From positions 1-35,738 of the forward strand of contig NTKF01000010.1 of NCBI GenBank assembly GCA_002457295.1: a stretch of 35,738 nucleotides of DNA, in the 5' to 3' direction. The translations under genes were made by a program, and so were the position numbers. The notes beneath the pieces are model-generated. The model was not told the DNA's origin. It was given only the letters and a program-made list of their open reading frames with translations, and made no database searches. The DNA comes from Flavobacteriales bacterium MED-G22. Its GTDB lineage: Bacteria; Bacteroidota; Bacteroidia; Flavobacteriales; Flavobacteriaceae. Position 1 is the stretch's first letter; each line of letters opens with the position of its first letter. This document shows, in pieces, positions 6,963-35,738 of the stretch.

Positions 6963-9900
6963 ATGAACTATATTTTTCTAAAGACATACGTATCCTTTAT
7001 AGTTATCGCTATTTTTTTCAATTCGTGCTCTGTGCAGATTCCGGATGAGGTTATGGTCGAATATGAAAAAATCAATAGAACAGTAGATTTTAATTACGAT
7101 GTACAACCAATTTTATCAGATCGATGCTATCAGTGCCACGGGCCAGATGAAAACACCAGAAAGGCAGGCCTAAGACTAGATAAGGAAGATTTAGCTTTTT
7201 CAAAGCTTGCCAGCGGCTCAAAAGCCATTGTTGCTGGAAGTCTTTTTCAGAGTGAAATGGCCCATAGGATACTTGCTTCTGATCCTGACATCATAATGCC
7301 AACCCCAGAATCAAAATTATCGTTGACCAATACAGAAAAAGCAATCCTATTGAAATGGATTGACCAGGGGGCTGAGTGGAAAAAGCATTGGGCCTTTATT
7401 CCTCCTAAAAAAAGTAAAGAAGTGGATCAGTTTCTAAATGCTGGAAATAACCCTATTGATTTTTTTGTAGGAGAAAAATTACGCCAACAAGAATTACGTT
7501 TTTCGGAACCAGCAGCTAAAGAAACCTTATTGAGACGAGTAAGTTTTGATCTCACAGGCTTACCTCCCACCCTTGAAGCTCTTGACCGGTTTTTGGCAGA
7601 CACCACGGCAACTGCTTTCGAAAAAGAAGTTGATCGTTTACTTGAAACGGAGGCAAATGCTGAACGGTTGACCTTAGACTGGTTAGATTTATCTCGATAT
7701 GCAGATTCTCACGGTCTTCATGGCGATGGTGCTAGAATCATGTGGCCATGGCGTGATTGGGTGATTAAAGCATTCAAAAAGAATTTACCTTATGATGAGT
7801 TTGTCACCTGGCAATTGGCTGGAGACCTTTTACCCAATGCAACAAGGGAGCAAAAATTAGCTACTGCATTTAACAGAAACTCACCCATGACAGGAGAGGG
7901 AGGGGTTATTGATGAAGAATGGCGATTGCATTATGTTTTTGATCGAACAGAAACCCTAAGTACCGCCTTTATGGGATTGACAGTTGCCTGTGCAAAATGT
8001 CATGACCATAAGTTTGATCCCATTTCACAAAAGGAATATTATCAACTCACAGCCTTTTTTAATAACATTCGAGAATTAGGAATGACAGGAGATGATGGTA
8101 ATTTTGGCCCGCTTCTTTTGTTGCCTGATGTTCAAAATGAAAAAGAATTAAGTGAAATTCAGACGCGCATAAAAGAAGAGGAGAAGAAGCTTCAACTCAC
8201 ACAACAAGAACTGCAAACGTTTTATGCCTATGCTGAAGAATTGCCTCAAAAAGATATTTTGAAAGAAGGGCTTCTTGCACATTATTCTCTTGAAAAACTA
8301 TCTCCCCAACCCAAAGGAAAAGGGTTTAGAGTTGATAATAACAAAAACGTCACCACACGAAATGCGCCAAAAATAGTTGAAGGAATTTCAGGCAATGCCT
8401 TTGCATTTCAAGAGGATCACGATAAAATTTATGTAAAAAAAGAAATTCCCCAATTTGAATGGACTGATCCATTTTCAGTGACAGCATGGATCAATACAGA
8501 ACAACAAAAACAAGGTTTTAGGCAATTTATTGCTGGAACCACAGGAGACAAAAATAATTGGTGGCGCGGATGGGATTTTTATTTAGATGATCAAAATAGA
8601 ATCAATTTACGCCTAATCAATATGGCTCCAGGCAATATGATCCATGTGCAAAGTGAGGTCACTATCCCTCTTAAACAATGGAAATATGTGGCATTTCGAT
8701 ATGACGGAAGCGGGAAAGCTCGGGGATCACAACTCTTTGTTGACGGCAAAGAAGTGAAAACCAACATCCTCATTGATAATTTATATAAGAGTATTTTACC
8801 AGTGACATGGAGTGGCATGAAAAAAGAGGATCGTTCAATTTTGATTGGTAAAAGCTATTCCTCATTTGTAGGAGACAATGGCACTTTTGTGGGCCGAATG
8901 GATGAAATTAAATTTTTTAATAAAGCTCTTTCTCCACTTGCAGTACAATTACACTTTGAAGAATTTACCGCTCAAAAAAACAGAGTTGATCCAACTAAAA
9001 TTAAAGACTATTTGGTGGTTGAAGACCGTCGATTTAAAAAAGCCAATGGCCAACTCAACGACCTCAGAAAAAAATGGTTAGAAACCATTAATCCAGTGAT
9101 GGAAGTGATGGTTATGGAAGAAATGGAACAACCCCGTAAAACATTTCTCTATCAAAGAGGGGACTATAATTCCCCAGCTGATGAGGTGATTCCAGAAACA
9201 CCAGAAGTGCTTCCACCACTGAATCCTGATGCTCCTAAAAACCGATTAGGATTAGCTCAATGGCTTTTTAGTGACTCACACCCTCTAACGGCTCGTGTGG
9301 CTGTTAACCACTATTGGCAAATGCTTTTTGGACAAGGGCTGGTCAGAACTCCCACTGATTTTGGTTTACAAGGCAGTTTGCCCAGTCATCCAAAATTATT
9401 AGATTGGCTTGCCGTCGAATTTCAATCGAAGGGATGGGATATTAAAGCGCTTCTAAAAATGATGGTTCTCTCTGAAACCTACCAACAGAGTTCAAAGCTT
9501 ACCAAAGAATTACAAGAAAAAGACCCTACAAATATTTATCTTGCTCGAAACCATTCCTATCGTTTATCCGCTGAAATGATAAGAGATAATGCCTTAGCAA
9601 TAAGTGGACTTTTAGTCGATGAGGTGGGAGGTCCAAGTGTGAAACCATATCAACCCCCTGGATTGTGGAAAGAAAAAAATACATTTTCTCTTCAATTGTT
9701 AGAATATAAAAAGACCGGAGGCGACAGCTTGTATCGAAGAGGGATGTACACTTTTATCAAAAGAGGATCACCCCCTCCTTCTATGGTCAGTTTTGATGCT
9801 ACCTCGAGAGAAATATGTACTGTCAAACGAGAAAACACTTCTACACCCCTGCAGGCACTGGTGTTGCTAAATGATACGCAATATTTTGAAGCAGCTCGTT

Positions 9901-14118: not shown

Positions 14119-14140
14119 AAACCCTTCTTCTGAAGGGTTT
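14119..14140. terminator. Bidirectional rho-independent terminator
   Basis: Perfect 9-bp stem AAACCCTTC / GAAGGGTTT with a four-base loop, with a T-run on each strand (TTTTTATTT on +, TTTTTTTATCTTTT on -). It closes the DUF1553 operon and the convergent SnoaL-like gene. Confidence 0.92.
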
Positions 14141-14160: not shown

Positions 14161-14634
14161 TTAAGACTTTTTTATCTCTTTACGATATACGAGAATGCGT
14201 CTGACTTTTTTCTCCTCTATATAAACATCTACAACATCTAAAACGTTTAAGTTTAGTGGTTTATCTTGTAAGGCATGACCAGCAATAACCCATTCGCCTT
14301 CTTGACCTGTTACTTTCATTGTATAGGCAAAGTAAGGTTTCCAAGTTGGGTTTGAGGTATCAAACCAATTTGTTAAGGCTCCTAGAAATTGATCTTTCCC
14401 TCGAATTTCGCCACCGTCAGGCATTTCAACGAGAATAGAATCGTGTGCCATTTTTGAAATTTTAGCCATATTTCTGTCATTGTGTGCCTCAATAAACTTT
14501 TCATACAGTTTCAAGTTTTTTGGATTCGCATCAGTGGCAGGAATTTTACCATTTGCCCCTTGCAACCAACCTGGAGCTTGTGCAAGAGAAACAATTGTAG
14601 ATAATAGAAATGTAAATAAAAATAATTTTTTCAT
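14161..14634 (-). CDS. Secreted SnoaL-like (NTF2 fold) protein
   Basis: 157 residues. A Sec signal peptide (MKKLFLFTFLLSTIVSLAQA) precedes a single NTF2/SnoaL-like domain: KLYEKFIEAHNDRNMAKISKMAHDSILVEMPDGGEIRGKDQFLGALTNWF, then the beta-sheet half with WVIAGHAL and a Lys/Arg-rich end. Such domains are small cone-shaped pockets, either enzymatic or binding; no catalytic residue can be assigned. It is a single-gene unit with its own promoter (-7 at 14665-14672) and terminator at 14119-14140. The promoter and leader match those of three other genes in the window (starts at 19377, 20093, 24268). Confidence 0.85.
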   Translation of the reverse strand: MKKLFLFTFLLSTIVSLAQAPGWLQGANGKIPATDANPKNLKLYEKFIEAHNDRNMAKISKMAHDSILVEMPDGGEIRGKDQFLGALTNWFDTSNPTWKPYFAYTMKVTGQEGEWVIAGHALQDKPLNLNVLDVVDVYIEEKKVRRILVYRKEIKKS

Positions 14635-14664
14635 TTTGAATTGATTTATGATGTTATAACTAAA

Positions 14665-14695
14665 CTAAGATAATGTCTTTCCGATATATATCAAA
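14665..14695 (-). promoter_or_regulatory. Bacteroidota-type promoter of the 14161-14634 gene
   Basis: On the minus strand: TTTG (14692-14695), 19 bases, TATCTTAG (14665-14672), then 30 bases to the ATG including CATAAATCAAT. It fits the -33/-7 pattern of the group's primary sigma factor and recurs at three other genes. Confidence 0.72.
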
Positions 14696-14762
14696 TCAAA
14701 AATAGAATCAATCCTCTTGCTTTTTAAATTATACAAAAACAGTTGGGGATGTGAAATAGCTC

Positions 14763-16166
14763 TTATTTTCTTTGCCAAGGTGTTTTGCCTCCTTCTTGAA
14801 TATGCCTCCTTAGCTTCTTATTCAACTCTTCAGCTTTTTCAGGATATACCGCTATCAAATTATTTTTTTCATAGGGGTCATTTTTAAGATTGTATAACTC
14901 AAGTGGTTGATAGGGTGAACTCTGCAATAGTTTCCAGTCACCAGCTCTAAGGGCATGATATGCTTTTCCACCATATCGCAGACCTCCTTCTCTTCTCACA
15001 AAGTAGAGTTCTCTTTCTTCTGAGGGTTGTTCCCTACCAAGCAGTGTGGAATGAAAACTTCTACCATCAAACGAATCTTTGTTTTCAAGCCCGGCAATTG
15101 ATAATAAGGTAGGATATATGTCTACAGTGGCATTCACTTGGTTGGTTGTGCTGCCCTTTTCTATTTTGTTAGGCCATACCATAACTGTAGGTACACGAAG
15201 CCCCCCTTCATACATACTTTGCTTTCCGTCTCTAAGGAGTCCGTTGTTGGCCAAACTGGGTAAATGACCACCATTGTCACTGGTAAAAATGATTACTGTG
15301 TTTTCATATTGCCCACTCTCTTTTAGGCTTTTTATAACCTTACCAATACCTTCATCAAGATGTTCTATAAAGGCGATTAATTTTGCTCTTTTCTTTGGGA
15401 TGTTTGGCTCTCTTTTCAATACCCTTTGATAATAGGCTTCTGGTGGTTGCACAGGAAAATGAGGAGCATTGTAGGCTAAATAAAGAAAAAAGGGTTCTTC
15501 TATATTTTTTCTGGACTGAATGTAGTCTGCTGCCCATTTAGAAAAAAGATCTGTAGCATGCCCCACAGGGTCTATTTCTTTTTCGTTTAGGCGCATAAAA
15601 TTTTGACCCACTCTTCTTTTGATCACATAATCTTCCATCATATCCTCTAACCAACCGTGAAACAAATCAAACCCTTTTTGATTAGGTAAATTGGGACTTG
15701 ATAAACCCAAATTCCATTTTCCTATGTGGGCAGTATGATACCCTGCTTCTTTGAGCCTCTTGGGTAGTAGAATAACAGTTGGATCTAAAAAGCCCCAGTT
15801 GTTTTTTGGATTAGTACGAATTAAACCAGGAACACCCACTCTGTCTGGGTTTTTGCCTGTCATTATTGAAGCTCTTGTTGGAGCACAAACAGGCGAGTTA
15901 GTATAAAAATAAGTAAACCGCATTCCCTCTTCTCTCAAGGCGTCTATGGCGGGTGTATTCAAATCTTTTGTACCTGCAAATGACACGTCTTCATAACCTT
16001 GATCATCGGTCAATATGAGGAGTATGTTAGGTTTTTTTTCTTTTAACATAGATGCTGGTGCTACCGAAGGGTTACACGCTGCACAAGCCGGAATTTGGTC
16101 AACTGCAGAGGTGTTTACAAAGAAAAGAAGACTTCCAAAAAAGAAATTATTCCAAAAGTTTTTCAT
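14763..16166 (-). CDS. Sulfatase, formylglycine-dependent (S1/arylsulfatase type)
   Basis: About 467 residues from the ATG at 16166, chosen because it starts directly with a signal peptide (MKNFWNNFFFGSLLFFVNTSA); an ATG five codons upstream is also possible. Motifs: metal-binding NILLILTDDQGYEDV, the formylglycine signature PVCAPTRASIMTG (modified Cys at 94), GKWNLGLSS, and VIIFTSDNGGH. The fold and length fit periplasmic S1 sulfatases that remove sulfate from algal polysaccharides or other sulfate esters. It needs a formylglycine-generating enzyme encoded elsewhere. There is no SusC/SusD pair or glycoside hydrolase nearby, so it is not in a classical polysaccharide locus; it lies close to the DUF1553/DUF1501 operon, as such sulfatases often do in Planctomycetes. 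The TPR gene ends 74 bases upstream and may share a transcript. Confidence 0.93.
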   Translation of the reverse strand: MKNFWNNFFFGSLLFFVNTSAVDQIPACAACNPSVAPASMLKEKKPNILLILTDDQGYEDVSFAGTKDLNTPAIDALREEGMRFTYFYTNSPVCAPTRASIMTGKNPDRVGVPGLIRTNPKNNWGFLDPTVILLPKRLKEAGYHTAHIGKWNLGLSSPNLPNQKGFDLFHGWLEDMMEDYVIKRRVGQNFMRLNEKEIDPVGHATDLFSKWAADYIQSRKNIEEPFFLYLAYNAPHFPVQPPEAYYQRVLKREPNIPKKRAKLIAFIEHLDEGIGKVIKSLKESGQYENTVIIFTSDNGGHLPSLANNGLLRDGKQSMYEGGLRVPTVMVWPNKIEKGSTTNQVNATVDIYPTLLSIAGLENKDSFDGRSFHSTLLGREQPSEERELYFVRREGGLRYGGKAYHALRAGDWKLLQSSPYQPLELYNLKNDPYEKNNLIAVYPEKAEELNKKLRRHIQEGGKTPWQRK

Positions 16167-16255
16167 TAAAACAAGATACACCGAATCGATTAGATATCAA
16201 ATTTCGTATTTGAAATGATACTCTATTGATGAGTTTAAGCTGCTCACTCTTTTTT

Positions 16256-17455
16256 TTAGTTGAACCATGAAGCCATCAGACTTGTAGTTTGGGTAATAAA
16301 TTCATTTTTAAAAACGTTCTCCATGCTGGGAGGTGGAGGAATCTTTTTAACTAAACTGCATCCAGAATCATTAGCTCGCCGATCTCCAGCACCCACTAAA
16401 ACGCATTCTTCATAATTTTCCTCAAACGCTAAGGAATAATTTGAAATAATCGTATTATCGGCTGTCGAAATCCACTCTACTATAGCATCAAAATGGGCAT
16501 AATTTTTACTTGTGAATAAATCACCCTGCACCCTATAGACTACTTCTGTACCATCTTTTTTGGTTCTTTTTTTTTGATTAGAATAGTGTTCTCTATTTGA
16601 TATATAAGTGCCATAATTCCAATCGTTGAAGGTGATTTTTATTATAACATCGGCTTGAATTCCATTATAATTATCTGAATAAAAGTAAGTAGAATATTCT
16701 TGAATATTTTTGACTGGTATGGCAAAAAGATTATTTCCCAACGAAGCTCTGATTTGATTCATTACCGTATTGATCACTCTAAATCGGGTATCTGTTCTTC
16801 CAGAAGAATTAGCCGGATCTAAAAGAACCACTCTATAGCTTCCCTTTTCAACGCATGTTTTCATCAGCATTTCACTATTTTCATAGTTTGGCACATAAGA
16901 ATTAATACTATTAAAAACATGATATGCCTTTTGGAAATCCGATTTTTGGTTTGCTTTTTCAAAAAGTTCAGTTCCCTGTTCATACAGTTCTTGTGCAGCC
17001 AATAGGTTGTATTCATTCACTCGCTGTGTAGCCATAGCGAGTTGAGGATTATATTCTTTCGTATGGTCCTGAACTAGAGTCTTGTTTTTGAGTTTAACTT
17101 GTTCAGGAAAAAAAAGAAGCTCATTCTGAACATCAACCAACTTTTGGTAGTATTCTTTAATTCGTTTTGCCTCTCCTACACTAGTAATACCTTGATAAGT
17201 ATTTGCTGATTTTTCTAAGAGTTGAATTTTCAATTCATACCATCTATTTACTTTGATGATAGATTTTTCAAACAATTCAACAGACTTTTTGAATTTAGGA
17301 TTTTCTTGCAAGGCTCTGGTAGCATTGATGGTGGCTGTGGCGTAGTCTTGCTCTTTATAGGCTTTGTTGCCCTGACGGGTTAATTTTCTATACCCTTGTG
17401 AAAAGGCCAAGAAAGGAAGCAGTAATAAAATACATAGGATTTGAAGGTGTTTCAT
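16256..17455 (-). CDS. Exported TPR-containing protein of unknown function
   Basis: 399 residues with a signal peptide (MKHLQILCILLLLPFLAFSQ). Residues about 20-60 form TPR-like helices (GYRKLTRQGNKAYKEQDYATATINATRALQENPKFKKS), followed by a helical middle to about 205. The C-terminal half is a distinct, probably alpha/beta, domain beginning YRVVLLDPANSSGRTDTRFRVINTVMNQIRASL, with many Tyr and Asn residues and a pair of Cys near the end (EECVLVGAG...SGCSLV). I do not recognise that domain. It sits upstream of the sulfatase on the same strand. It is likely a periplasmic or outer-membrane assembly or binding protein, a guess from TPRs and signal only. Confidence 0.75.
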   Translation of the reverse strand: MKHLQILCILLLLPFLAFSQGYRKLTRQGNKAYKEQDYATATINATRALQENPKFKKSVELFEKSIIKVNRWYELKIQLLEKSANTYQGITSVGEAKRIKEYYQKLVDVQNELLFFPEQVKLKNKTLVQDHTKEYNPQLAMATQRVNEYNLLAAQELYEQGTELFEKANQKSDFQKAYHVFNSINSYVPNYENSEMLMKTCVEKGSYRVVLLDPANSSGRTDTRFRVINTVMNQIRASLGNNLFAIPVKNIQEYSTYFYSDNYNGIQADVIIKITFNDWNYGTYISNREHYSNQKKRTKKDGTEVVYRVQGDLFTSKNYAHFDAIVEWISTADNTIISNYSLAFEENYEECVLVGAGDRRANDSGCSLVKKIPPPPSMENVFKNEFITQTTSLMASWFN

Positions 17456-17641
17456 ATCGGTAGGATTTGGTAATATGTAAACAAAGGAAAGCTATTTTTT
17501 TAAATAATAAAAGGCTATATTTTTTCAAAAAGGAGGCACTATATAAGTATATATACAATTCAACTTAGGTCAACTAAATATATTAAATTCAATTTTAGCT
17601 TTAATGGTAAAAACAGATTAACTTGTTGAGCTAATTGAACA

Positions 17642-18439
17642 ATGGTTCATCAAACAAAACAAGATAATCTAGTGAAAAGATATTGTATTGCATTTTTATT
17701 CTTGGGTTTTGGACTGCTATTTGGGCAAAGCTATCAATCTGAAATTTTAGTTCAAGATAAAGATACCCTCCCTTACAGAATACTTTTCCCCAAAAACTTT
17801 AATCCTAACGAAGCTACGCCGCTAGTAGTTATTCTTCATGGGGCTGGTGAGCGAGGAAATGATAACAAAGCTCAATTATTTCATGGAGCTAAACTCTTCC
17901 AAGAAGACAAATTTAGAGCACAACATTCTGCTATAGTCGTTTTTCCTCAGTGTCCAGAAAATTCGTATTGGGCCAGCGTGAAAAGAGATTATACCACTAG
18001 TTTAGAAAAAAAATACACCTATGCAACGATGCCACCCCAATACAATCAGTTGGAGATGGTAGAAGCGTTGATGCGTTTTTTAGAAAATAAATATACCATC
18101 GACCCTAAGCGGAGGTATGTGGGGGGTCTCTCAATGGGCGGTATGGGAACTTTTGAATTGGTGAGCCGAAATCCTGACTATTTTGCTGCTGCCTTTCCTA
18201 TTTGTGGCGGAGCAAACCCCAATTGGGCAACATTGTTAAGTAAAACGCCTTTATGGATCTTCCACGGAGAAAAAGATGATGTGGTTTGGGTAGAACATTC
18301 AAAGCGAATGTATAAGGCATTGAAGGAAATTAAAGCACCAGTTAAACTAACGCTCTACCCAGAAGTGAAGCATGACAGTTGGCACAACGCTTTTGCAGAT
18401 CCAAATTTGATGCCGTGGCTTTTTTCTAATGTAAAATAA
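17642..18439 (+). CDS. Secreted alpha/beta hydrolase (prolyl oligopeptidase/esterase type)
   Basis: 265 residues with an N-terminal hydrophobic export signal (residues 12-29). Core motifs of the serine esterase fold: oxyanion strand VVILHGAGERGNDN, nucleophile elbow GLSMGGMG with Ser164, acid in WIFHGEKDDVV (Asp212), and His in EVKHDSWHNAF (His244). This matches the small LpqC/PHB-depolymerase-like and feruloyl/acetyl esterase group, so it likely hydrolyses an ester in the periplasm or outside. Substrate unknown. It is a single gene on the + strand, divergent from the TPR gene, with no co-transcribed partner. Confidence 0.88.
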   Translation: MVHQTKQDNLVKRYCIAFLFLGFGLLFGQSYQSEILVQDKDTLPYRILFPKNFNPNEATPLVVILHGAGERGNDNKAQLFHGAKLFQEDKFRAQHSAIVVFPQCPENSYWASVKRDYTTSLEKKYTYATMPPQYNQLEMVEALMRFLENKYTIDPKRRYVGGLSMGGMGTFELVSRNPDYFAAAFPICGGANPNWATLLSKTPLWIFHGEKDDVVWVEHSKRMYKALKEIKAPVKLTLYPEVKHDSWHNAFADPNLMPWLFSNVK

Positions 18440-18573
18440 CTAGATTGATTTAAAATTCCACGCCAAGTGTTCTGTGTACTCTTGATCTAAAAATAGCTTA
18501 ACTGTATAGAACTCTAGTATAAGAATACGTTTTAATATTCTGGTTTGTAGTTTCCTAAATTGTGAAAATAAAA

Positions 18574-18596
18574 AAACCCTCTCTTGAAGAGGGTTT
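18574..18596 (-). terminator. Rho-independent terminator of the 18619-19377 gene
   Basis: 9-bp stem AAACCCTCT / AGAGGGTTT with a 5-base loop; on the minus strand it is followed by TTTTTTTATTTT. The T-run on the + strand is poor, so it mainly serves the minus-strand gene. Confidence 0.88.
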
Positions 18597-18618
18597 AAGA
18601 AATTTAGATAAAAAAGAT

Positions 18619-19377
18619 TTACTTTACTGCATATATTAATGTTGTCATCACACGCTTCATAATCTCCCTCTGAGAGGCGCCGTTTCCATATTTTTTGTTC
18701 ATTTCATTCCACAGTTTTTCTGGCATTTGCTTTCCTTGGGATTTCATTTTTTCAACACTATCATACACATCGACGGTCATATAGTCCCACTCTTTTGTAG
18801 CCCAATCAATAGGCTCATCTCTCTCAAAAGCATACCAAGCATCTCTATTCCCGTAATCTGTAAAAATAGCACCCATTTCAATGTGTTTTTGCTTATACTT
18901 TTGAGATTTCGTTTTAGTAAAATTATAAATGGCTATATCACCCACATGATTTAATTTATTACGACCAGCAACTCCATCAAGCTTTGTTCGATAGATCACA
19001 TTTCTACTTTTACGATGAACCTCCTGTAAAATAGAATGCAGTTCTGGGCTCATGTTAGGAAAAACAACGTCAACATCAAAAGCATCACAATCCCAATAGT
19101 TCTCATCACCGGGATTCATAACGTCAATAGTCATATGAGTGAAGTTTTCTGCCATACTTGAATTGGGAACCACTCGTCTAAAGATCCAATTTGACATACA
19201 TCCTAATTTAACACGTTCTGCCATCATTTTACCCAAATAGTCTTTCATTACGGTTTCATATTCAACTCTCATGTCTTCATCAACCTTATAAAACCCCATT
19301 TGAATTTTTTGATTGGTTTGGGCCACAGTTAAGGAGCAGATAAGAAGTAAGGCAAGAGATAAAATAATTTTGTTCAT
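18619..19377 (-). CDS. Secreted protein of unknown function, predicted alpha/beta-barrel repeat type
   Basis: 252 residues with a signal peptide (MNKIILSLALLLICSLTVAQ). The mature part looks like two ferredoxin-like (dimeric alpha/beta barrel) halves: the first with YETVMKDYLGKMMAERVKLGCMSNWIFRRVV, the second with YNFTKTKSQKYKQKHIEMGAIFTDYGNRDAWYAFE. Each ends in a short M-T-x-D-V strand (THMTIDVMN, DYMTVDVYD). The protein at 23522-24268 has the same layout, so they are paralogues. No catalytic motif is visible. It has its own promoter (19406-19436) and terminator (18574-18596), making it a single-gene unit. Confidence 0.75.
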   Translation of the reverse strand: MNKIILSLALLLICSLTVAQTNQKIQMGFYKVDEDMRVEYETVMKDYLGKMMAERVKLGCMSNWIFRRVVPNSSMAENFTHMTIDVMNPGDENYWDCDAFDVDVVFPNMSPELHSILQEVHRKSRNVIYRTKLDGVAGRNKLNHVGDIAIYNFTKTKSQKYKQKHIEMGAIFTDYGNRDAWYAFERDEPIDWATKEWDYMTVDVYDSVEKMKSQGKQMPEKLWNEMNKKYGNGASQREIMKRVMTTLIYAVK

Positions 19378-19405
19378 TTTAATTTATTTATGGTTAATAT
19401 AACCT

Positions 19406-19436
19406 CTAAGATACAGAGAATGTGATTTATTTCAAA
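19406..19436 (-). promoter_or_regulatory. Bacteroidota-type promoter of the 18619-19377 gene
   Basis: Minus strand: TTTG (19433-19436), 19 bases, TATCTTAG (19406-19413), 28 bases to ATG. The -7 box is identical to those at 14665 and 24296, and the leader contains CATAAATAAATTAAAATG. Confidence 0.74.
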
Positions 19437-19553
19437 AAGTATACAAAAATCCCTCACAACCCTCTAAAACCACTACACAGTTATCTTTGGTTAAAGAAGT
19501 GATATCAATGCACTAGAAAGGATTTGGATTGGAAGCATTGGTGTAAAAGAAAA

Positions 19554-19570
19554 CCCTCCACTAGGGAGGG
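19554..19570 (-). terminator. Rho-independent terminator of the 19596-20093 gene
   Basis: 6-bp GC-rich stem CCCTCC / GGAGGG with a 5-base loop; on the minus strand it runs into TTTTCTTTT. Confidence 0.82.
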
Positions 19571-19595
19571 CTTGAATTTTTGAGATAAATATTAC

Positions 19596-20093
19596 TCATT
19601 CATTTTTTTCTCCACATAAGTCCTGACCGTATAACTTTTGTGCTAACAGAAGATCACTTAAATATTCTTTAAGAATAGACACTTTCCCATCTTTATTTAC
19701 AACATATTTAAGTGCGTATTCATTTTCATATTTACCAGCTATACCCTCCATTCTACCTTCAGCAAAAACTATAGCAGTATTTTCACTAGGAATAATTTCT
19801 AAAAATTCTGCTCCAATTTCACCTTTGAGGAGAGATACAAATTCACCCATAAACTCCATATATCCATCCCAGTTATACGTATTTGAAATATCTAATTGAC
19901 CATTAAGAGTATATTCAAAATCATCAGAAATCATAGATTTCATAGTTTCAATATCACCTCCCACTTGAGCAGTATAAAACTTCATAACAATTTCTTTAGT
20001 ATTGTCGATACTTTTTTCTCTTTCACTTTTGACCTGTTCTTGAGAACATGATAGCAGTAAAATGCTTAGAGACATAAATATTATTTTTTTCAT
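19596..20093 (-). CDS. SnoaL-like lipoprotein
   Basis: 165 residues starting at the ATG at 20093. The frame is open further upstream, but starting here gives a clean lipoprotein signal (MKKIIFMSLSILLLSCSQEQ, Cys16), and the longer version would read through the -7/-33 promoter found upstream. The rest is one NTF2/SnoaL-like domain: VMKFYTAQVGGDIETMKSMISDDFEYTLNGQ, then YMEFMGEFVSLLKGEIGAEFLEIIPSENTAIVFAEGRMEG. Probable small-ligand pocket on the cell envelope; no activity can be assigned. It is a single-gene unit with promoter and terminator, with the same leader as the genes starting at 14634, 19377 and 24268. Confidence 0.82.
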   Translation of the reverse strand: MKKIIFMSLSILLLSCSQEQVKSEREKSIDNTKEIVMKFYTAQVGGDIETMKSMISDDFEYTLNGQLDISNTYNWDGYMEFMGEFVSLLKGEIGAEFLEIIPSENTAIVFAEGRMEGIAGKYENEYALKYVVNKDGKVSILKEYLSDLLLAQKLYGQDLCGEKNE

Positions 20094-20121
20094 TTTAATT
20101 GATTTATGATTAATAATACTT

Positions 20122-20152
20122 CCAATATATAGAGAATGGATTACATAGCAAA
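20122..20152 (-). promoter_or_regulatory. Bacteroidota-type promoter of the 19596-20093 gene
   Basis: Minus strand: TTTG (20149-20152), 19 bases, TATATTGG (20122-20129), 28 bases to ATG with CATAAATCAATTAAAATG. The spacer ends CATTCTCT just before the -7 box, as in the 19377 promoter (ATTCTCTG). Confidence 0.7.
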
Positions 20153-20326
20153 TCCCATCTCCCTGTTTCAATAGAAAACAGTTTCCAAAAACCCATGTCC
20201 CTGTGTTTGGATTTATGCTGGATTGAGCTTTTAGCTTTTAAATTTGATTTATCATACGATAACCGTACATATTTAGATATAAAAAATATAATCATTTGAA
20301 AATGAAACTATTGAATTTTATTCAAG

Positions 20327-20398
20327 TACCCTCGACAGGAATCGAACCTGTATCTAAAGTTTAGGAAACTTTTGTTCTATCCGTTGAACTACGAGGGT
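20327..20398 (-). tRNA. tRNA-Arg (anticodon CCT)
   Basis: The minus strand folds as a full cloverleaf of 72 bases: acceptor ACCCTCG/CGAGGGT with discriminator A, D-arm GTTC/GAAC, anticodon stem AAAGT/ACTTT with loop TTCCTAA giving CCT, and T-arm ACAGG/CCTGT with loop TTCGATT. CCA is not encoded. CCT reads AGG codons. The gene is intact, with no integrase or direct repeat next to it. Confidence 0.95.
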
Positions 20399-20630
20399 GG
20401 TTTATTTGGGGTCTAAAGATAAAGACTATAATACTAATTTTACTATTCAATTTTCTAATCAAAAACCTATCTAAAATATAAAAAAGGTTTTCACGTTTTA
20501 AAAGAATTGGCTAAAGTGTACGCATAAAAATATACTCAAATACTTTATAATACGTTATAAAGTGGTAGGGTGAGGATATTTATATCATTTTTGAACTATT
20601 CATTATATTTAAATTTTCTTAATTCATAAA

Positions 20631-21482
20631 ATGGAAGAAAAGAAACAAAACGGCAGTTGGATTATCAAACTTTTCACTTTAGGCGATAAGTTTGATGTAA
20701 ATGATTTTTGGGATCGTGTAAAAAAATCTACCGTTGAATTTATTATCTTGGTTTTTGGTGTTACAGTTTCATTTGGAATTGAGCAACAAGGTGGAGAGTC
20801 TGATTCCAGAAATGACGGTATAGAAAATCTATACAACTTGAGAGAAGAAATAGATAAAATGATTGACTACACAGATGAGTATATTGAAAGTTTTGAATGG
20901 ATAGCCACATTGTTCGACGAGCAATATGCTAAATGGGAAGTAGAAAATGACAGCATTTTTCTTGCCTATGAAATAGATGAGGAAATGCCGGAGGGGAAAT
21001 ATTATTATCCCACGATGAGTTTGTTTGTTATTAGAAATCCCTTTAATCCACCTAGAGTCAATTTTGACGCCATCAAATTAGACGGTACTTTTAGGCTATT
21101 GCCCAAAGAAGTAGGCCTCGAAATGACAAAAATTTATGATGGGATTGAGTTAGGTTACCTAATGGAAAACACAGGCAAAATTGAAGAACGACTAGTAAAT
21201 CAATTTAAGAATAGAATAGCTTCAAAATGGGTTTTTGATCTCCCCGAAGTGAGTATTGATGACAATAAGTTTTGGGTGGACAATAGAAAATATCTTCAAA
21301 AAGACAAATACGTGAAATATCTTTTATTTCAACGCTTAGATTTATATGCTAGTGATGTGGCAGGTCAATTGGGTGACTATAGAGCTGAACTTGTGCAAAG
21401 CACAAAGATGCTCGACTCGGTCATTGCCGTGCGCGAAAGTGAATTTGAATTTATTTGGTGGGTATTAAATCCCAAAGACTAA
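20631..21482 (+). CDS. Single-pass membrane protein, DUF6090-like
   Basis: 283 residues. After a charged N-terminus of about 35 residues comes one membrane helix, KKSTVEFIILVFGVTVSFGIEQQG, followed by a helical extracytoplasmic domain rich in Glu and Asp. This layout (short N-terminus, helix of the E-(F/L)-x-(I/V)-V-x-G-(I/V) type, then a helical domain with a YALV/FDAIK-like core) is that of the DUF6090 family common in flavobacteria, of unknown function. The middle NFDAIKLDGTFRLLP resembles the EYSALVNSGLIELI segment of the protein at 22795-23481. It is monocistronic on the + strand, downstream of the divergent tRNA. Confidence 0.7.
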   Translation: MEEKKQNGSWIIKLFTLGDKFDVNDFWDRVKKSTVEFIILVFGVTVSFGIEQQGGESDSRNDGIENLYNLREEIDKMIDYTDEYIESFEWIATLFDEQYAKWEVENDSIFLAYEIDEEMPEGKYYYPTMSLFVIRNPFNPPRVNFDAIKLDGTFRLLPKEVGLEMTKIYDGIELGYLMENTGKIEERLVNQFKNRIASKWVFDLPEVSIDDNKFWVDNRKYLQKDKYVKYLLFQRLDLYASDVAGQLGDYRAELVQSTKMLDSVIAVRESEFEFIWWVLNPKD

Positions 21483-21581
21483 TCCTTTTTTGTTTAGAAA
21501 CTTCTTAGAACCTAAGAACTATAATAAAGGGTGCAAGAACATACTGATGGTATACGCTCTGTTTTTAGAGTCCAACCTGGG

Positions 21582-21824
21582 TTATAGAGCCTCTTGCGTT
21601 TTCCTCTTTTTTAAAATAGAGGTGATTTTAAATAGTTGAATGGAAACAATAACAACATTTAAAAAAATTATTGATGAAGAAAGATCAAGAATACCATAGG
21701 TCAACCAAAGTATTGCTCCTACTAAATTCACAATTCTTAGCCACAACATATTGTTTATTAAGAAAGAACAAATAATGATAACAGTAGCTATCCATCCGAC
21801 GATATCAAGTGTTTCAAAGGTCAT
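21582..21824 (-). CDS. Small membrane protein, YgjV/PQ-loop-like
   Basis: 80 residues with three hydrophobic helices (about 7-24, 28-46, 50-68) and a basic C-terminus (KKRKTQEAL). The pattern LDIVGWIATVIIICSFL then LRIVNLVGAILWLTYGI resembles the half-repeat of small PQ-loop-like and YgjV-type inner membrane proteins. Function not known. It lies 116 bases beyond the PhyH gene on the same strand and might be the tail of that operon, or independent. Confidence 0.7.
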   Translation of the reverse strand: MTFETLDIVGWIATVIIICSFLINNMLWLRIVNLVGAILWLTYGILDLSSSIIFLNVVIVSIQLFKITSILKKRKTQEAL

Positions 21825-21940
21825 TGTGATTGAATTTAATTTTAAATATAAAGAAATCTCTTTCTCTCAGGTCAATTTATAATAACCAGAATAGAGCGTA
21901 TATTTTCAGGGAGCGAAAAAGGAGTGTCATAAAACCCAGA

Positions 21941-22762
21941 CTAATCTCTGCCTTCAGCATTGATTGCCTCATCCTCATCTAACACTTTTGGGTAAGGATA
22001 ATCTAATCCTAGAAGCTGTCTTAAAATGGGTGAAGCATTGTCTATAACTTCTTTTTTAACTCCCCTTTTTTGATCTTCCATGGGTTTAACAAATTTAGGA
22101 AGATATTGAAGTAAGATGGCATTTCTAACCTCATTGGAGCTGTTGTTGGGCATGGCTCCGTGCCAGGTGAGCCCATTAAAAATGGCAATATCACCTGCTT
22201 TTCCGGTCATTCTTTCGCATTCTTCAAAATACTTTATGGTATCCTTTTCATCAGGATATCGGCAAAGTTTTTGAGTGTAGGGTAGCACCCCAGTGGCTCC
22301 ATTTTCAACAGTGAAATCATTTAATAAAATGGTCACTTGGCAATTTAGTGGGAAAGAGGCATTTATATTTTTTGGGAAGCTTTCCTTTTTATACATGTCC
22401 CAATAGGGATAATCAATGTGTGGCTCTTGACCGGGACCACCAGGAAAAATGCAATTGGCAGCAATGGAGCCCAAGCAAACTTCACTACCCAGAAACTCTT
22501 GAACAATTTTTACTACTAATGGCACTTGGACCATTTTCACAAAAATATCCCCCTTATTAAGTAAATTCCAAACTCTTTTTTGAAGGTGGAGCGTGTCTTT
22601 ATTTTTTCCTTGGAAATGTGTTGTTTTTTCCTCTTCATGCTCCAAATAAAAAGTAATCAGGCGATGGGCTTCTTCAATATCATTTGGACTGAAAACGGAG
22701 GGAATAATAATATATCCCTTTCCTTCCAATAGCTCGTTACTTATTTTTTTGACTTCTTCCAA
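21941..22762 (-). CDS. Phytanoyl-CoA dioxygenase (PhyH) family oxygenase
   Basis: 273 residues of the Fe(II)/2-oxoglutarate oxygenase superfamily. The facial triad is visible: His115 and Asp117 in QEPHIDYPYWD, and His201 in LTWHGAMPNNS; Arg213 in EVRNAILLQY is placed to hold 2-oxoglutarate. There is no signal peptide, so it is cytoplasmic. The family hydroxylates small molecules (acyl-CoAs, amino acids, ectoine, natural products); the substrate here cannot be read. It starts 32 bases after the DUF6090-like gene and is probably the third gene of a unit beginning at 24268, an unusual combination with a secreted protein and a membrane protein. Confidence 0.9.
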   Translation of the reverse strand: MEEVKKISNELLEGKGYIIIPSVFSPNDIEEAHRLITFYLEHEEEKTTHFQGKNKDTLHLQKRVWNLLNKGDIFVKMVQVPLVVKIVQEFLGSEVCLGSIAANCIFPGGPGQEPHIDYPYWDMYKKESFPKNINASFPLNCQVTILLNDFTVENGATGVLPYTQKLCRYPDEKDTIKYFEECERMTGKAGDIAIFNGLTWHGAMPNNSSNEVRNAILLQYLPKFVKPMEDQKRGVKKEVIDNASPILRQLLGLDYPYPKVLDEDEAINAEGRD

Positions 22763-22794
22763 TACTAAGAAAATGGCTTATTTATACTGCTTTT

Positions 22795-23481
22795 TCAATT
22801 AATTAATTCTTTATCAATTTCTTTAATTAACAAGGAGTCTTGAATAATAGCCCTCTTGATTAAATTTGAATACAAGGAATGCATTAAACCTGTTTCAGAA
22901 ACCCTGTTTATTTCTTCATCATTCAAATACCTTTTGTTAGGTTTATAGGCGGTCCAATAACCAACTACGCCTTTGTGATTTCTTCTATTTTTTGATTCAA
23001 AAAAGGGGTCCAGTCTTTTGTCTGTCAAATACAGATCAAGCAACAATTGATTATTTTTTTCATACCATTTTTGGTCAGTATATTTTTTTTGCAATAAAGA
23101 GACCAGATTTCTATTTTCAATCAATTCAATTAAGCCCGAATTCACCAACGCAGAATATTCTTCATCATTTTCAACAAATACTGTGTTAGCATTTCTTACG
23201 TAAGATAAATAAAATCCTAACGAATCTTTATTGGTTTGATAAAGTTGCAAACCTCTATAGTAGAGGATGTCTGCATATTTATTTGCAGTGGAATGTATTT
23301 CATAGTCAAAATGGAATCCTTCAAGTTCACTCAATAAATTATTCTTGAGTTTTAGTAAAGACTCCATTTTCAACTCATTTTTGTAGGCAATAGCATTCTG
23401 TTTTTCTACATAAAACGAAATGGATATACCCAAAACAATCACTGCAAATTCTAAGATATATTTTTTAATCAACTTATTCAC
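22795..23481 (-). CDS. Single-pass membrane protein, DUF6090-like
   Basis: 228 residues. An N-terminal membrane helix (KKYILEFAVIVLGISISFYVEKQ, about 5-27) is followed by a helical extracytoplasmic domain with EYSALVNSGLIELIENRNLVSLLQKKY and a basic, Tyr-rich end. This is the DUF6090 layout, and it shares its helix signature with the + strand protein at 20631-21482, so the two are distant paralogues. Function unknown. It is 40 bases downstream of the secreted barrel-type gene and 32 upstream of the PhyH gene, all on the minus strand, so co-transcription from the promoter at 24296 is likely. Confidence 0.75.
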   Translation of the reverse strand: MNKLIKKYILEFAVIVLGISISFYVEKQNAIAYKNELKMESLLKLKNNLLSELEGFHFDYEIHSTANKYADILYYRGLQLYQTNKDSLGFYLSYVRNANTVFVENDEEYSALVNSGLIELIENRNLVSLLQKKYTDQKWYEKNNQLLLDLYLTDKRLDPFFESKNRRNHKGVVGYWTAYKPNKRYLNDEEINRVSETGLMHSLYSNLIKRAIIQDSLLIKEIDKELIN

Positions 23482-23521
23482 TTCTGGATGATGTAGTTTG
23501 TAGCTTCCTTTTCAGTCTGGT

Positions 23522-24268
23522 TTAATTACGATCAATTACTTCTATGGTTGCCGAAACGGCATCCCTAGAGGCGACAACAATTTCTGTAAGCTTATCACTT
23601 ATATATTGATTTTGAACAATATAGGGGTCAAACTGTTTTCCAGGCACGTTGATGTTCCAAGTGAAGTGAGTAAACTCTTGAAGAGCATTCTCACTGCGAT
23701 CTGTTATTTTAGTAAAGCCCCACCACCGATGATTACCTTTCAAGATTTGCTCTTCAACAAAAGGTTTATAAATTTGAGTTTCAACCTGTTCATAATCCTC
23801 TGTTTTTTGGATCATGGCACCAACTCCAATTTCATCTCCAACTTTCAAGTCGCCCCCTGCTTGAATGGTTTGATCAATAAATTCTAAATGATATCTTCTA
23901 TTCTCTACAGAAACCTCACGATTGAGAACTCGATTGATTTCTGAAGACTTAAATTTAGTTCGTGCCGCTTTTTTAAGATTTTCAAGACTCCAATTCTTTC
24001 CATAGGCATCAATTTGATCTTGGTCTTTATATACATTAATGGTTACATAATTAGGTGGATTTTCTAATGTTTTGTCAATCGTTTTTACTTCGCATAAATA
24101 CCAAGCCATCATTTTACCTTCGGCGATCATTTTTTGATGATACGGTTTAAAAATATTTTCTAGGGCAAGATAGTCTTCTTGATTTTTTATCACCTTAAAA
24201 TCGACAAATACGGTTTGGGAAAAGCAGATTAGGGGTAGCGTTAGGAAAAAAAATAAACACTTTTTCAT
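23522..24268 (-). CDS. Secreted protein of unknown function, paralogue of the 18619-19377 product
   Basis: 248 residues with a signal peptide (MKKCLFFFLTLPLICFSQ). The mature part has two similar halves: LENIFKPYHQKMIAEGKMMAWYLCEV and VETQIYKPFVEEQILKGNHRWWGFTKI, each followed by a strand ending T-I/W-N-x-N/V (NYVTINVYKD, THFTWNINVPG). This looks like a duplicated ferredoxin-like/dimeric alpha/beta barrel fold, as in the paralogue at 18619. No catalytic motif. It is the first gene of a likely unit with the DUF6090-like and PhyH genes, and its promoter and leader belong to the shared set. Confidence 0.76.
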   Translation of the reverse strand: MKKCLFFFLTLPLICFSQTVFVDFKVIKNQEDYLALENIFKPYHQKMIAEGKMMAWYLCEVKTIDKTLENPPNYVTINVYKDQDQIDAYGKNWSLENLKKAARTKFKSSEINRVLNREVSVENRRYHLEFIDQTIQAGGDLKVGDEIGVGAMIQKTEDYEQVETQIYKPFVEEQILKGNHRWWGFTKITDRSENALQEFTHFTWNINVPGKQFDPYIVQNQYISDKLTEIVVASRDAVSATIEVIDRN

Positions 24269-24295
24269 TTTTATTGATTTATGATTAATGAACCC

Positions 24296-24327
24296 CTAAG
24301 ATAAAGAAGATTATAGAAGCTTTCAAA
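24296..24327 (-). promoter_or_regulatory. Bacteroidota-type promoter of the 23522-24268 unit
   Basis: Minus strand: TTTG (24324-24327), 20 bases, TATCTTAG (24296-24303), 27 bases to ATG with ATTAATCATAAATCAAT. The -7 box is identical to those at 14665 and 19406. Confidence 0.72.
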
Positions 24328-24408
24328 TTCAATTGATGTTCTTATTTGAAAAACCTGCTTTTTCTAGTCCTTTTTTAAAAGGATCAAAGTGAATTTATTT
24401 TTTCAATT

Positions 24409-34579: not shown

Positions 34580-35360
34580 TTAAACTTCTTCATTTTCTTC
34601 ACTCCAGGTTTCCTTTCTTTTGTTAAGGTTTTCAGAATTATAAAGCTTGATGAACTCATCCAAATGTTGCATGGTCATCACACGTTTTTTTGGTGTGTGG
34701 TGAATATTAGTCCTGTAATCGTAGAACCAAATGTCTTTTGTCCAAGGGTCTTTACTTGCTGGTTTGTTGTTGAATAACAATACATTCGCTTTTACGCCAG
34801 GTGCGTAGAATATTCCTGTTGGCAAACGAAGAATGGTGTGTAATTCTGTGGTCTTTACTAATTGCTTTCTCACTTCTTCACCAGCACCTCCTTCAAACAA
34901 AACATTATCAGGTAATACAACCGCAGCTTCACCATTGATTTTAAGCATGGTTTTGATGTGCTGCACAAAGTTCAATTGCTTGTTAGAAGTCGTTTCCCAA
35001 AAGTCTTGACGGTTATAGCTCATGTCTTGCTTTTCGGCTTCACCCTCTTCATTGGTAATGGTAATACTACTTTTCTTACCAAAAGGGGGATTGGCTAAAA
35101 CGTAATCTACACGTGTTCCGTCATCAGAAATCAATGCATCTGCTGATTTGATAGGTGTATCACCATCTATTTCACCAATGTTGTGCAGATACATGTTCAT
35201 TAAGCACATTCTACGTGTATTGGCAACAATTTCATTACCACAAAAAGTTTCATTCTTTAGAAATGCTTTTTCTTGACAATCTAATTTATTATTATCAACA
35301 ATCCAATCGTAAGCCGCTAAAAAGAAACCACCAGTACCACAAGCAGGGTCAGCGATGGTT
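34580..35360 (-). pseudogene. hsdM: Type I restriction-modification methyltransferase (HsdM) fragment
   Basis: About 260 residues of the roughly 500 expected. The reading frame begins inside the catalytic domain at TIADPACGTGGFFLAAYDW (SAM motif I) and continues through VDYVLANPPFGKKS (catalytic NPPF), VVLPDNVLFEGGAGEEVRKQL and WFYDYRTN. It stops at KRKETWSEENEEV, where intact relatives continue with about 100 more residues. The N-terminal helical domain, and hsdS/hsdR, are absent. The left end runs into non-HsdM sequence before the DUF4157 gene; the right end meets a recombinase tail near 35360. Neither a start codon for the whole product nor a promoter remains, so it is a relic. A start at 35209 would lack motif I. 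Confidence 0.87.
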
Positions 35361-35462
35361 TTGATTAAAGCTCTGGGACACTCATCAATAAATGTTAGTT
35401 TGACTTATTTAAGAGGGTTAGAAGTTCCTGAACTTAATGAAGAGGATATGCCTGAGTTGTAA
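35361..35462 (+). pseudogene. C-terminal tail of a tyrosine recombinase
   Basis: The + strand frame reads LIKALGHSSINVSLTYLRGLEVPELNEEDMPEL and stops at TAA 35460-35462. ALGHSSINVSLTYLR is the box II signature of tyrosine recombinases, with the catalytic His and the nucleophile Tyr. Everything upstream, including the catalytic Arg box I, is missing: left of about 35360 the + strand is antisense to HsdM. It is too short for an independent gene and has no start. A terminator at 35468 follows at once, as expected for the natural 3' end of a recombinase gene. Confidence 0.8.
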
Positions 35463-35467
35463 TAAAA

Positions 35468-35489
35468 AACCCTCCCACTAGGGAGGGTT
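35468..35489. terminator. Bidirectional rho-independent terminator
   Basis: 9-bp stem AACCCTCCC / GGGAGGGTT with loop ACTA, preceded by AAAAAA and followed by ATTGTTTTG. It closes the recombinase tail on + and the partial gene at 35507 on - (T-run TTTTTTATT). Confidence 0.9.
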
Positions 35490-35506
35490 ATTGTTTTGCA
35501 AAACAA

Positions 35507-35738
35507 TTAATATCTATTTATAAGAACTCTAGTAAATGATTTTGAATACTCTGATGAAGTATCAAGTACTTTAGTAAACGCTGAAAAGGCCGCAGATTCA
35601 TTTTCACTTTGTGGGCCAAAATTAAATGCAGCATTTAAGTCAGAATAAGTCCCATATATATAAACACTCTCTCCGTTGTCTGTACCGTGAACAATTTGAC
35701 CCATTCCAACAAATCCATCAAACTTATACGACTTTATG
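35507..35738 (-). CDS. Partial protein of unknown function, C-terminal part
   Basis: The frame is open from the right edge to a stop at 35507: about 76 residues, starting ...IKSYKFDGFVGMGQIVHGTDNG and ending FTRVLINRY. It is rich in Ser, Phe, Asn and Asp without hydrophobic helices. The pattern DLNAAFNFGPQSENESAAFSAF is not familiar. The internal ATG at 35704 is probably not the start because the frame continues upstream. The terminator at 35468 lies just beyond it. The neighbourhood of a recombinase relic suggests it may belong to the same accessory region. Confidence 0.55.
   Translation of the reverse strand, partial: IKSYKFDGFVGMGQIVHGTDNGESVYIYGTYSDLNAAFNFGPQSENESAAFSAFTKVLDTSSEYSKSFTRVLINRY

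Follow-up and report, generated by a model that had tools for sequence, protein, structure and literature searches.

A conserved leader on putative one-gene cassettes, and a candidate recombinase site between them, in marine Flavobacteriaceae

A leader shared by four genes and kept in their relatives

Four minus-strand genes, with start codons at 14634, 19377, 20093 and 24268 (genes 1 to 4 below), carry almost the same sequence directly upstream of ATG in a stretch of 35,738 nucleotides (nt) from Flavobacteriales bacterium MED-G22 (contig NTKF01000010.1; this whole stretch is called the window). Here, we ask what this shared leader represents and how it came to stand before these genes. The answer that we consider probable is that it is the conserved 5' untranslated region (5'UTR) of a lineage-specific set of self-expressing one-gene cassettes for small, mostly exported proteins in marine Flavobacteriaceae, and that a tyrosine recombinase most likely joins these cassettes at a 26-bp site, the box.

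A preliminary description had noted in all four genes a common spacing of TTTG, a -7 box, CATAAAT(C/A)AAT and ATG, which it found before no other gene of the window, and both observations hold. The pattern TTTG-N{19,20}-TATMTTRG-N{12,18}-CATAAATMAAT, written after the sites had been seen (an earlier version with a narrower spacer matched one), has four matches in the window, which are the four named genes, and none in 100 dinucleotide shuffles; no further exact leader is present in the window. From TTTG to the -7 box the spacers of genes 1 to 4 are 19, 19, 19 and 20, and from the -7 box to ATG 30, 28, 28 and 27; the box itself reads TATCTTAG in three genes and TATATTGG in one. CATAAATMAAT alone occurs four times against 0.16 expected, a count reached in 0 of 100 shuffles. 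With one mismatch allowed the short block gives 8 matches in the window against 6.6 expected, which is not above chance, and the strength of the signal thus lies in the exact block together with its position beside ATG.

Relatives were found through one transporter gene, whose best species-genome matches were at most 77% identical and came mainly from Flavobacteriaceae, with some marine single-cell or metagenome entries. In 1.57 Mb (80 loci from the transporter search, three loci and the window), 17 open reading frames (ORFs) of at least 60 codons had CATAAAT within a few bases upstream; the full leader is present on seven of these, the four window genes and three ORFs of genome G031. Scanning 32 genomes with the pattern yielded 12 sites in G003 (AG-901-E05), 11 in G031 (AG-914-G02), 6 in G012, 3 in G023 (TMED48) and 0 to 4 in the others, against 12 matches of the reversed pattern in all of them together. 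The genus of G003 (38 draft genomes, called congeneric below) holds 225 leader sites in 35 genomes, with at most 17 pattern sites in any one and a single match of the reversed pattern; in the wider family sites are found in 42 of 397 genomes, 34 of which have a single one, and the reversed pattern matches 10 times. The shared element beyond the promoter boxes is thus real and kept in relatives, and the case named as refuting, the leader standing before hundreds of unrelated genes, was not seen, sites being few per genome.

The leader is also tied to the start codon: in the fetched loci (435 kb in all) ATG adjoins 104 of 105 exact cores and 43 of 47 one-mismatch cores (mononucleotide shuffles, 0 and 0). 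A 400-kb sample of G332:C44, picked so as to contain known sites, has 375 ORFs, of which 20 carry the leader with at most three mismatches and most others are 6 to 11 mismatches away from it; 18 of the 20 lie within two stretches, at about 248.9-259.4 kb and 631.6-656.3 kb. These scans argue firmly that the leader is not general, and that it is limited to one gene set with many members clustered in islands. A transfer RNA (tRNA) gene is present in 12 of 34 island loci, compared with 2 of 16 pieces of 20 kb taken from elsewhere in G332, so that tRNA genes may be hot spots. A search of openly licensed PubMed Central (PMC) papers found no title or abstract on the leader or the site, and known RNA families at gathering score gave tRNA matches only (window, L270, L265 and L182).

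A profile was built from 161 leader genes of the fetched loci, selected with at most two mismatches over positions -18 to -1. Positions -22 to -1 hardly vary among these genes, and those from -22 to -19, which lay outside the selection, are T in 133, A in 131, T in 133 and T in 143 of the 161 genes (81-89% constant). The block is nearly free of G (6 among the 3059 bases at positions -19 to -1), C and T are equally common at position -16 (77 genes each), and G031 has its own fixed variant throughout, CATAAATTATTTAAA. Upstream similarity is down to background before about -60. A relaxed -7 box of the TAnnTTTG type is present in 140 of the 161 genes, against 27% in shuffles, and in 118 of these 140 it ends 26-28 nt upstream of ATG. 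For F. psychrophilum, a -7 box at -12 to -5, a sigma-A -7 consensus of TAnnTTTG and a median 5'UTR of 24 nt are reported (PMC9723704). The two box positions together give a predicted 5'UTR of 22-24 nt, which is the length of the block, and by flavobacterial promoter spacing the constant block is thus predicted to be the whole 5'UTR.

In F. johnsoniae, A at -3, -6 and -12 is reported as a positive determinant of translation, with A also favoured at -13 (PMC6847099). The leader has A at the first three positions and T at -13, which does not agree. Its likeness to flavobacterial sigma-A promoters with A-rich initiation therefore consists of the type of -7 box, the short 5'UTR and these three A residues; A-rich initiation is, however, a loose composition, whereas here a fixed 22-nt sequence stands on one gene set.

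Interchangeable upstream modules and a candidate recombinase site

The four genes had been read as sharing one promoter. This did not survive comparison with relatives, in which promoters differ and the last ~22 nt before ATG (TATTAAYCATAAATCAATTAAA) are constant. In at least 9 of 61 pairs, judged by eye, the ORFs are near-identical and the leader is kept while the upstream promoter module is different; examples are L199:2659 and L204:892 (proteins 97.7% identical), L176:144 and L225:1516 (97.9%), and L158:1516 and L182:1416 (94.5%). Gene 3 and its relative in G003 (82%) likewise have different upstream modules. On the 3' side, in several of 13 pairs examined, similarity extends through the terminator and then ends. 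One module, the A-type, measures about 170 nt from terminator to ATG and was found in 20 places including relatives. Modules were distinguished by eye, a 7-mer clustering that put 137 of 161 genes into one cluster having been discarded, and the F and A-like classes rest on loose patterns. The A-type module was also seen to swap with box modules; no recombinase is linked to it.

Between the two explanations first offered, a common regulator or the duplication of an expression cassette, the cassette fits better, since these are one-gene units with interchangeable flanks. The regulator fares less well in its promoter-bound form, as the upstream promoters belong to several modules.

Another module begins with the 26-bp box GGCATATCCTCTTCATTAAGTTCAGG, whose reverse complement is found in the final codons of a gene for a tyrosine recombinase (...PELNEEDMPMI). 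The catalytic domain PF00589 is recognised in this recombinase at 43.8 bits (cut-off 27.1) over residues 181-333 of 347. Full-length copies are present in five congeneric genomes (G347, G021, G003, G352 and G358) and, among 20 further genomes scanned, in G031, G030 and G310. Matches of any length occur in 18 of the 38 congeneric genomes, fragments being common, and 17 of 397 genomes of the wider family have a strong match.

The clearest array is on G347:C45, where the box in the recombinase end, at 7471, is followed by others at 8906, 9530, 10275, 10809, 11385, 11689 and 12637. The ORFs between them read toward the recombinase; six of the seven intervals hold a single ORF, and three of these ORFs have an exact leader. 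G003:C12 has a less regular series at 1049, 2636, 4039, 4930, 5435 and 6369, five of them beyond the recombinase end; in G352 a single ORF lies between two boxes, and on G031:C2 boxes and leader genes stand on the flanks of the recombinase. No arrays are visible in G358 and G021 because the contigs end beside the recombinase. Across a set of 143 boxes (at most six mismatches), a same-strand leader with ATG follows within 170 nt in 60 of 141 cases and in the opposite direction in 1. Immediately upstream of the box lies the end of an ORF in 96 of 136 cases, against 24% at random places, and a stop codon often directly precedes it. Boxes best match the recombinase end of their own genome in 9 of 12 cases in G031 and 6 of 10 in G030, the test being uninformative in G347, G003 and G358. 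The window is linked to this recombinase by a remnant of its gene with a box, at 35373-35462, beside a truncated barrel-type gene.

Three further observations concern recombinases and boxes. In G310 the recombinase of this family adjoins type I restriction-like genes, as at the right end of the window. Loci L276 and L277 of G354 carry a box variant, GGCATATCATCTTCAGTAAGTTCTGG, throughout their islands, and the recombinase family was not found in that genome. At L133 (G003:C3) a broken tyrosine recombinase of another type adjoins leader genes and runs into a box.

We propose that a cassette would consist, in order, of a site or other module, a promoter, the constant leader, an ORF and often a terminator. 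One class of site would be the antisense end of the recombinase gene, where the recombinase most likely joins cassettes. The leader, nearly G-free and with A at the three positions named, would permit translation wherever the cassette lands and behind any promoter.

Alternative explanations and known systems

Comparison of the sequences brings together a leader, its restriction to a gene set, islands, swapped upstream modules, neighbours that change at the site and site-separated genes by the recombinase. Cassette behaviour of the leader genes is supported by this comparison, and a role of the recombinase in joining them appears likely. For the four window genes, cassette status rests on their relatives and on the truncated fifth gene, and from these we infer that they may be mobile.

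Several results weigh against the cassette explanation. Most leader-bearing drafts lack a full-length recombinase, which only 5 of the 38 have. None of the ORFs in the G003 array carries the leader, even with four mismatches allowed. No box accompanies the G310 recombinase in 20 kb of sequence, the boxes of G030 have no leader genes near them, and 0 of 9 boxes in G352 best match the recombinase end of their own genome. Upstream of the window genes there is no box (0 of 4), one having an A-type site, one an A-like promoter and two neither, and 56 of 151 leader genes have no recognised upstream module (10 of the 161 were too close to a locus end and were left out). Among pairs of the 143 boxes, 17 share the left flank only, 20 the right only and 1 both, which speaks for neighbours that change at the site; these counts are not independent, however: the 17 left-flank pairs form about ten groups by eye, 13 of the 20 right-flank pairs compare recombinase ends, each beside its own neighbours, with one another, and at least two more have only promoter and leader in common. 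Over 31 disjoint gene pairs the leader changes at 65 of 651 positions against 587 of 1909 four-fold sites, a test that is biased by the choice of genes through their leader, and in which a few pairs misaligned by an insertion inflate the leader differences.

Homologous recombination between repeats, or stepwise accretion of integrative elements with decayed recombinases, would produce islands of this kind with no shuffling of single genes by a recombinase. Modules, leader and terminators are indeed all repeated, a given ORF can have different modules on either side even in the absence of a box, recombinase fragments are common, and 12 of 34 island loci are near tRNA genes, as integrative elements are. 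However, single genes in series are separated by sites that point one way, and it is at the box that the identity of the flanks switches, so that we regard this explanation as unlikely. We give still less credence to a regulon in which one regulator, be it a protein binding DNA near +1, an RNA-binding protein or a small RNA, reads the leader, an idea that is compatible with cassettes. It would account for a constant block before non-homologous genes, for the fixed variant of G031 and for the lower change of the leader in the biased pair test above; on the other side, promoters differ between leader genes, the leader also fits plain translation needs, and no regulator turned up, though no systematic regulator search was made. 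A plain strong promoter with the ribosome-binding context of the clade, which the fit to the sigma-A consensus TAnnTTTG and the A-rich Flavobacterium initiation context would favour, was rejected as very improbable, because the genus, family and 400-kb scans found leader sites to be few and confined to a small share of the ORFs (at most 17 pattern sites per genome; 20 of 375 ORFs within three mismatches).

Cassettes joined by a recombinase recall integrons, in which a tyrosine recombinase likewise stands beside single-gene units with a repeated site between them; the layout found here is that of tandem one-ORF units with one site orientation (six of seven intervals in G347; 60 boxes against 1). 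Some integron cassettes are reported to carry their own promoters (PMC8618304); those described here differ in carrying a constant 5'UTR. No congeneric genome (0 of 38) has a match to the integron integrase TIGR02249 above the 265-bit cut-off; weaker matches occur in 37 of the 38 and in 14 of 14 control genomes, and the recombinase itself scores 24 bits. IntI is further distinguished by a specific insertion in its catalytic domain (PMC8138268). The site described here lies in the 3' end of the recombinase gene (G347, G003, G352, G358, G021 and G031), and in G347 the ORFs read toward the recombinase. In integrons, by contrast, attI adjoins the 5' end of intI and the array reads away from it. 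The attC sites of integrons act in the form of folded single strands. Seven box sites, folded as one strand each with DNA energies in search of attC-like structure, gave z between -0.66 and 1.00, nothing unusual. Identity with integrons was rejected, as recombinase family, site position and folding all speak against it.

The integrative islands known as GInts are similar in pairing a tyrosine recombinase with cargo and in having att sites that can overlap gene ends (PMC5385486), and a tRNA gene is present in the 12 island loci counted above. In GInts, the four-gene ginABCD operon is reported to be needed (PMC5385486), whereas here there is one recombinase, with sites between single genes.

Exported products, features of the window and meaning

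From 139 leader ORFs, 131 proteins were kept after partial or short ones had been dropped. They form 38 similarity clusters, the two largest of which (23 and 22 members) are barrel-type candidates, the former containing genes 2 and 4; clusters of 16, 8 and 6 look SnoaL-like, that of 8 containing gene 3, and gene 1 stands alone. By a crude test 122 of the 131 have a hydrophobic N-terminus. On G332:C44 all 20 leader ORFs pass it and, of the 306 ORFs more than six mismatches away from the leader, 124 do so, the 49 of 375 with 4-6 mismatches falling outside both classes. A Pfam scan (E 0.01) of 111 representatives, out of 118 non-redundant leader proteins with 7 partial ones excluded, gave 51 families, with SnoaL_2 in 14, DUF4440 in 4 and beta-lactamase in 3. 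The leader also occurs outside exported proteins, on the genes for a DUF1059 protein and an alcohol dehydrogenase.

The four window products had been described as exported, and by reading their N-termini do look so, that of the gene at 20093 being lipoprotein-like. Three of the genes had been said to be closed by hairpins, and hairpins with T-runs indeed follow those starting at 14634, 19377 and 20093, and none follows 24268, again by reading. The assignment of two products as SnoaL-like stands in part: for both (14161-14634, 23.8 bits, E 7e-5; 19596-20093, 24.6 bits, E 3.8e-5) the top Pfam hit is SnoaL_2, but neither reaches its cut-off of 27 bits, and the two do not align to each other. Likewise, the two proteins called related and barrel-type are weakly alike (27% over 55 residues, E 7e-4) but have no Pfam or NCBIfam match. 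An AlphaFold2 model of gene 2 from 7 sequences was poor (predicted local distance difference test, pLDDT, 41). That of P0009, a marine relative found by profile, from 45 sequences reached pLDDT 90.7 with a repeated beta-alpha-beta-beta-alpha-beta order. The profile link between P0009 and gene 2 is weak and covers 47 N-terminal columns at 78%, so that the label barrel-type is provisional; no credible solved relative was found by sequence (best E 0.37).

Positions of the features are given in Table 1. The right end of the window (34580-35738) holds, by eye, a gene like a type I restriction methylase subunit, then the recombinase remnant with its box, a terminator and the cut-off barrel-type gene. 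The window protein at 22795-23481 has no Pfam match; its relatives recur in leader islands (5 ORFs at 3 loci), none of the five with the leader. The protein family of P0009, P0008-P0062, is without a precomputed Pfam domain, and the leader gene L189:4748 looks like a member by eye; in the alignment behind its profile search, row L083 has one extra residue.

Table 1. Positions of the leader genes and associated features in the window
Feature	Positions	Strand	Basis or remark
Gene 1, SnoaL-like, N-terminus looks exported	14161..14634	-	ORF, Pfam, reading
Gene 1 shared leader (predicted 5'UTR)	14635..14656	-	exact pattern; extent from 161-gene leader profile
Gene 1 -7 box TATCTTAG	14665..14672	-	TTTG at 14692-14695
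Gene 1 hairpin terminator	14119..14140	-	coordinates counted by hand
Gene 2, barrel-type candidate, N-terminus looks exported	18619..19377	-	ORF, protein clustering, reading
Gene 2 shared leader	19378..19399	-	exact pattern; extent from 161-gene leader profile
Gene 2 -7 box TATCTTAG	19406..19413	-	TTTG at 19433-19436
Gene 2 hairpin terminator	18574..18596	-	coordinates counted by hand
A-type intergenic module between genes 3 and 2	19378..19546	-	also present in relatives
Gene 3, SnoaL-like, looks like lipoprotein	19596..20093	-	Pfam, reading
Gene 3 shared leader	20094..20115	-	exact pattern; extent from 161-gene leader profile
Gene 3 -7 box TATATTGG	20122..20129	-	TTTG at 20149-20152
Gene 3 hairpin terminator	19554..19570	-	
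Gene 4, barrel-type candidate, N-terminus looks exported; no terminator directly 3'	23522..24268	-	
Gene 4 shared leader	24269..24290	-	exact pattern; extent from 161-gene leader profile
Gene 4 -7 box TATCTTAG	24296..24303	-	TTTG at 24324-24327
tRNA-Arg (CCT), within the gene group	20326..20398	-	
End of fifth gene, barrel-type, same kind; leader region cut off by window end	35507..35738	-	
Box site GGCATATCCTCTTCATTAAGTTCAGG	35427..35452	-	
Tyrosine-recombinase 3'-end remnant, 29 codons + stop, overlapping the box on the opposite strand	35373..35462	+	

The textbook case of a recombinase that captures single genes is the integron. We see about an even chance that the genes described here belong to a second gene-cassette capture system, in which a tyrosine recombinase other than IntI would use its own 3' end as entry site, and self-expressing cassettes, lined up in series and each with a promoter and a standard, nearly G-free 5'UTR, would shuffle a large repertoire of small exported proteins among species. 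If this is true, a layout with non-folding sites, cassettes that express themselves and an entry site within the gene of the recombinase would suggest that such platforms arose more than once. The constant leader may serve as a search key for finding all such cassettes, and the system would account for the small, exported and unannotated proteins that form islands in marine Flavobacteriaceae with small genomes.

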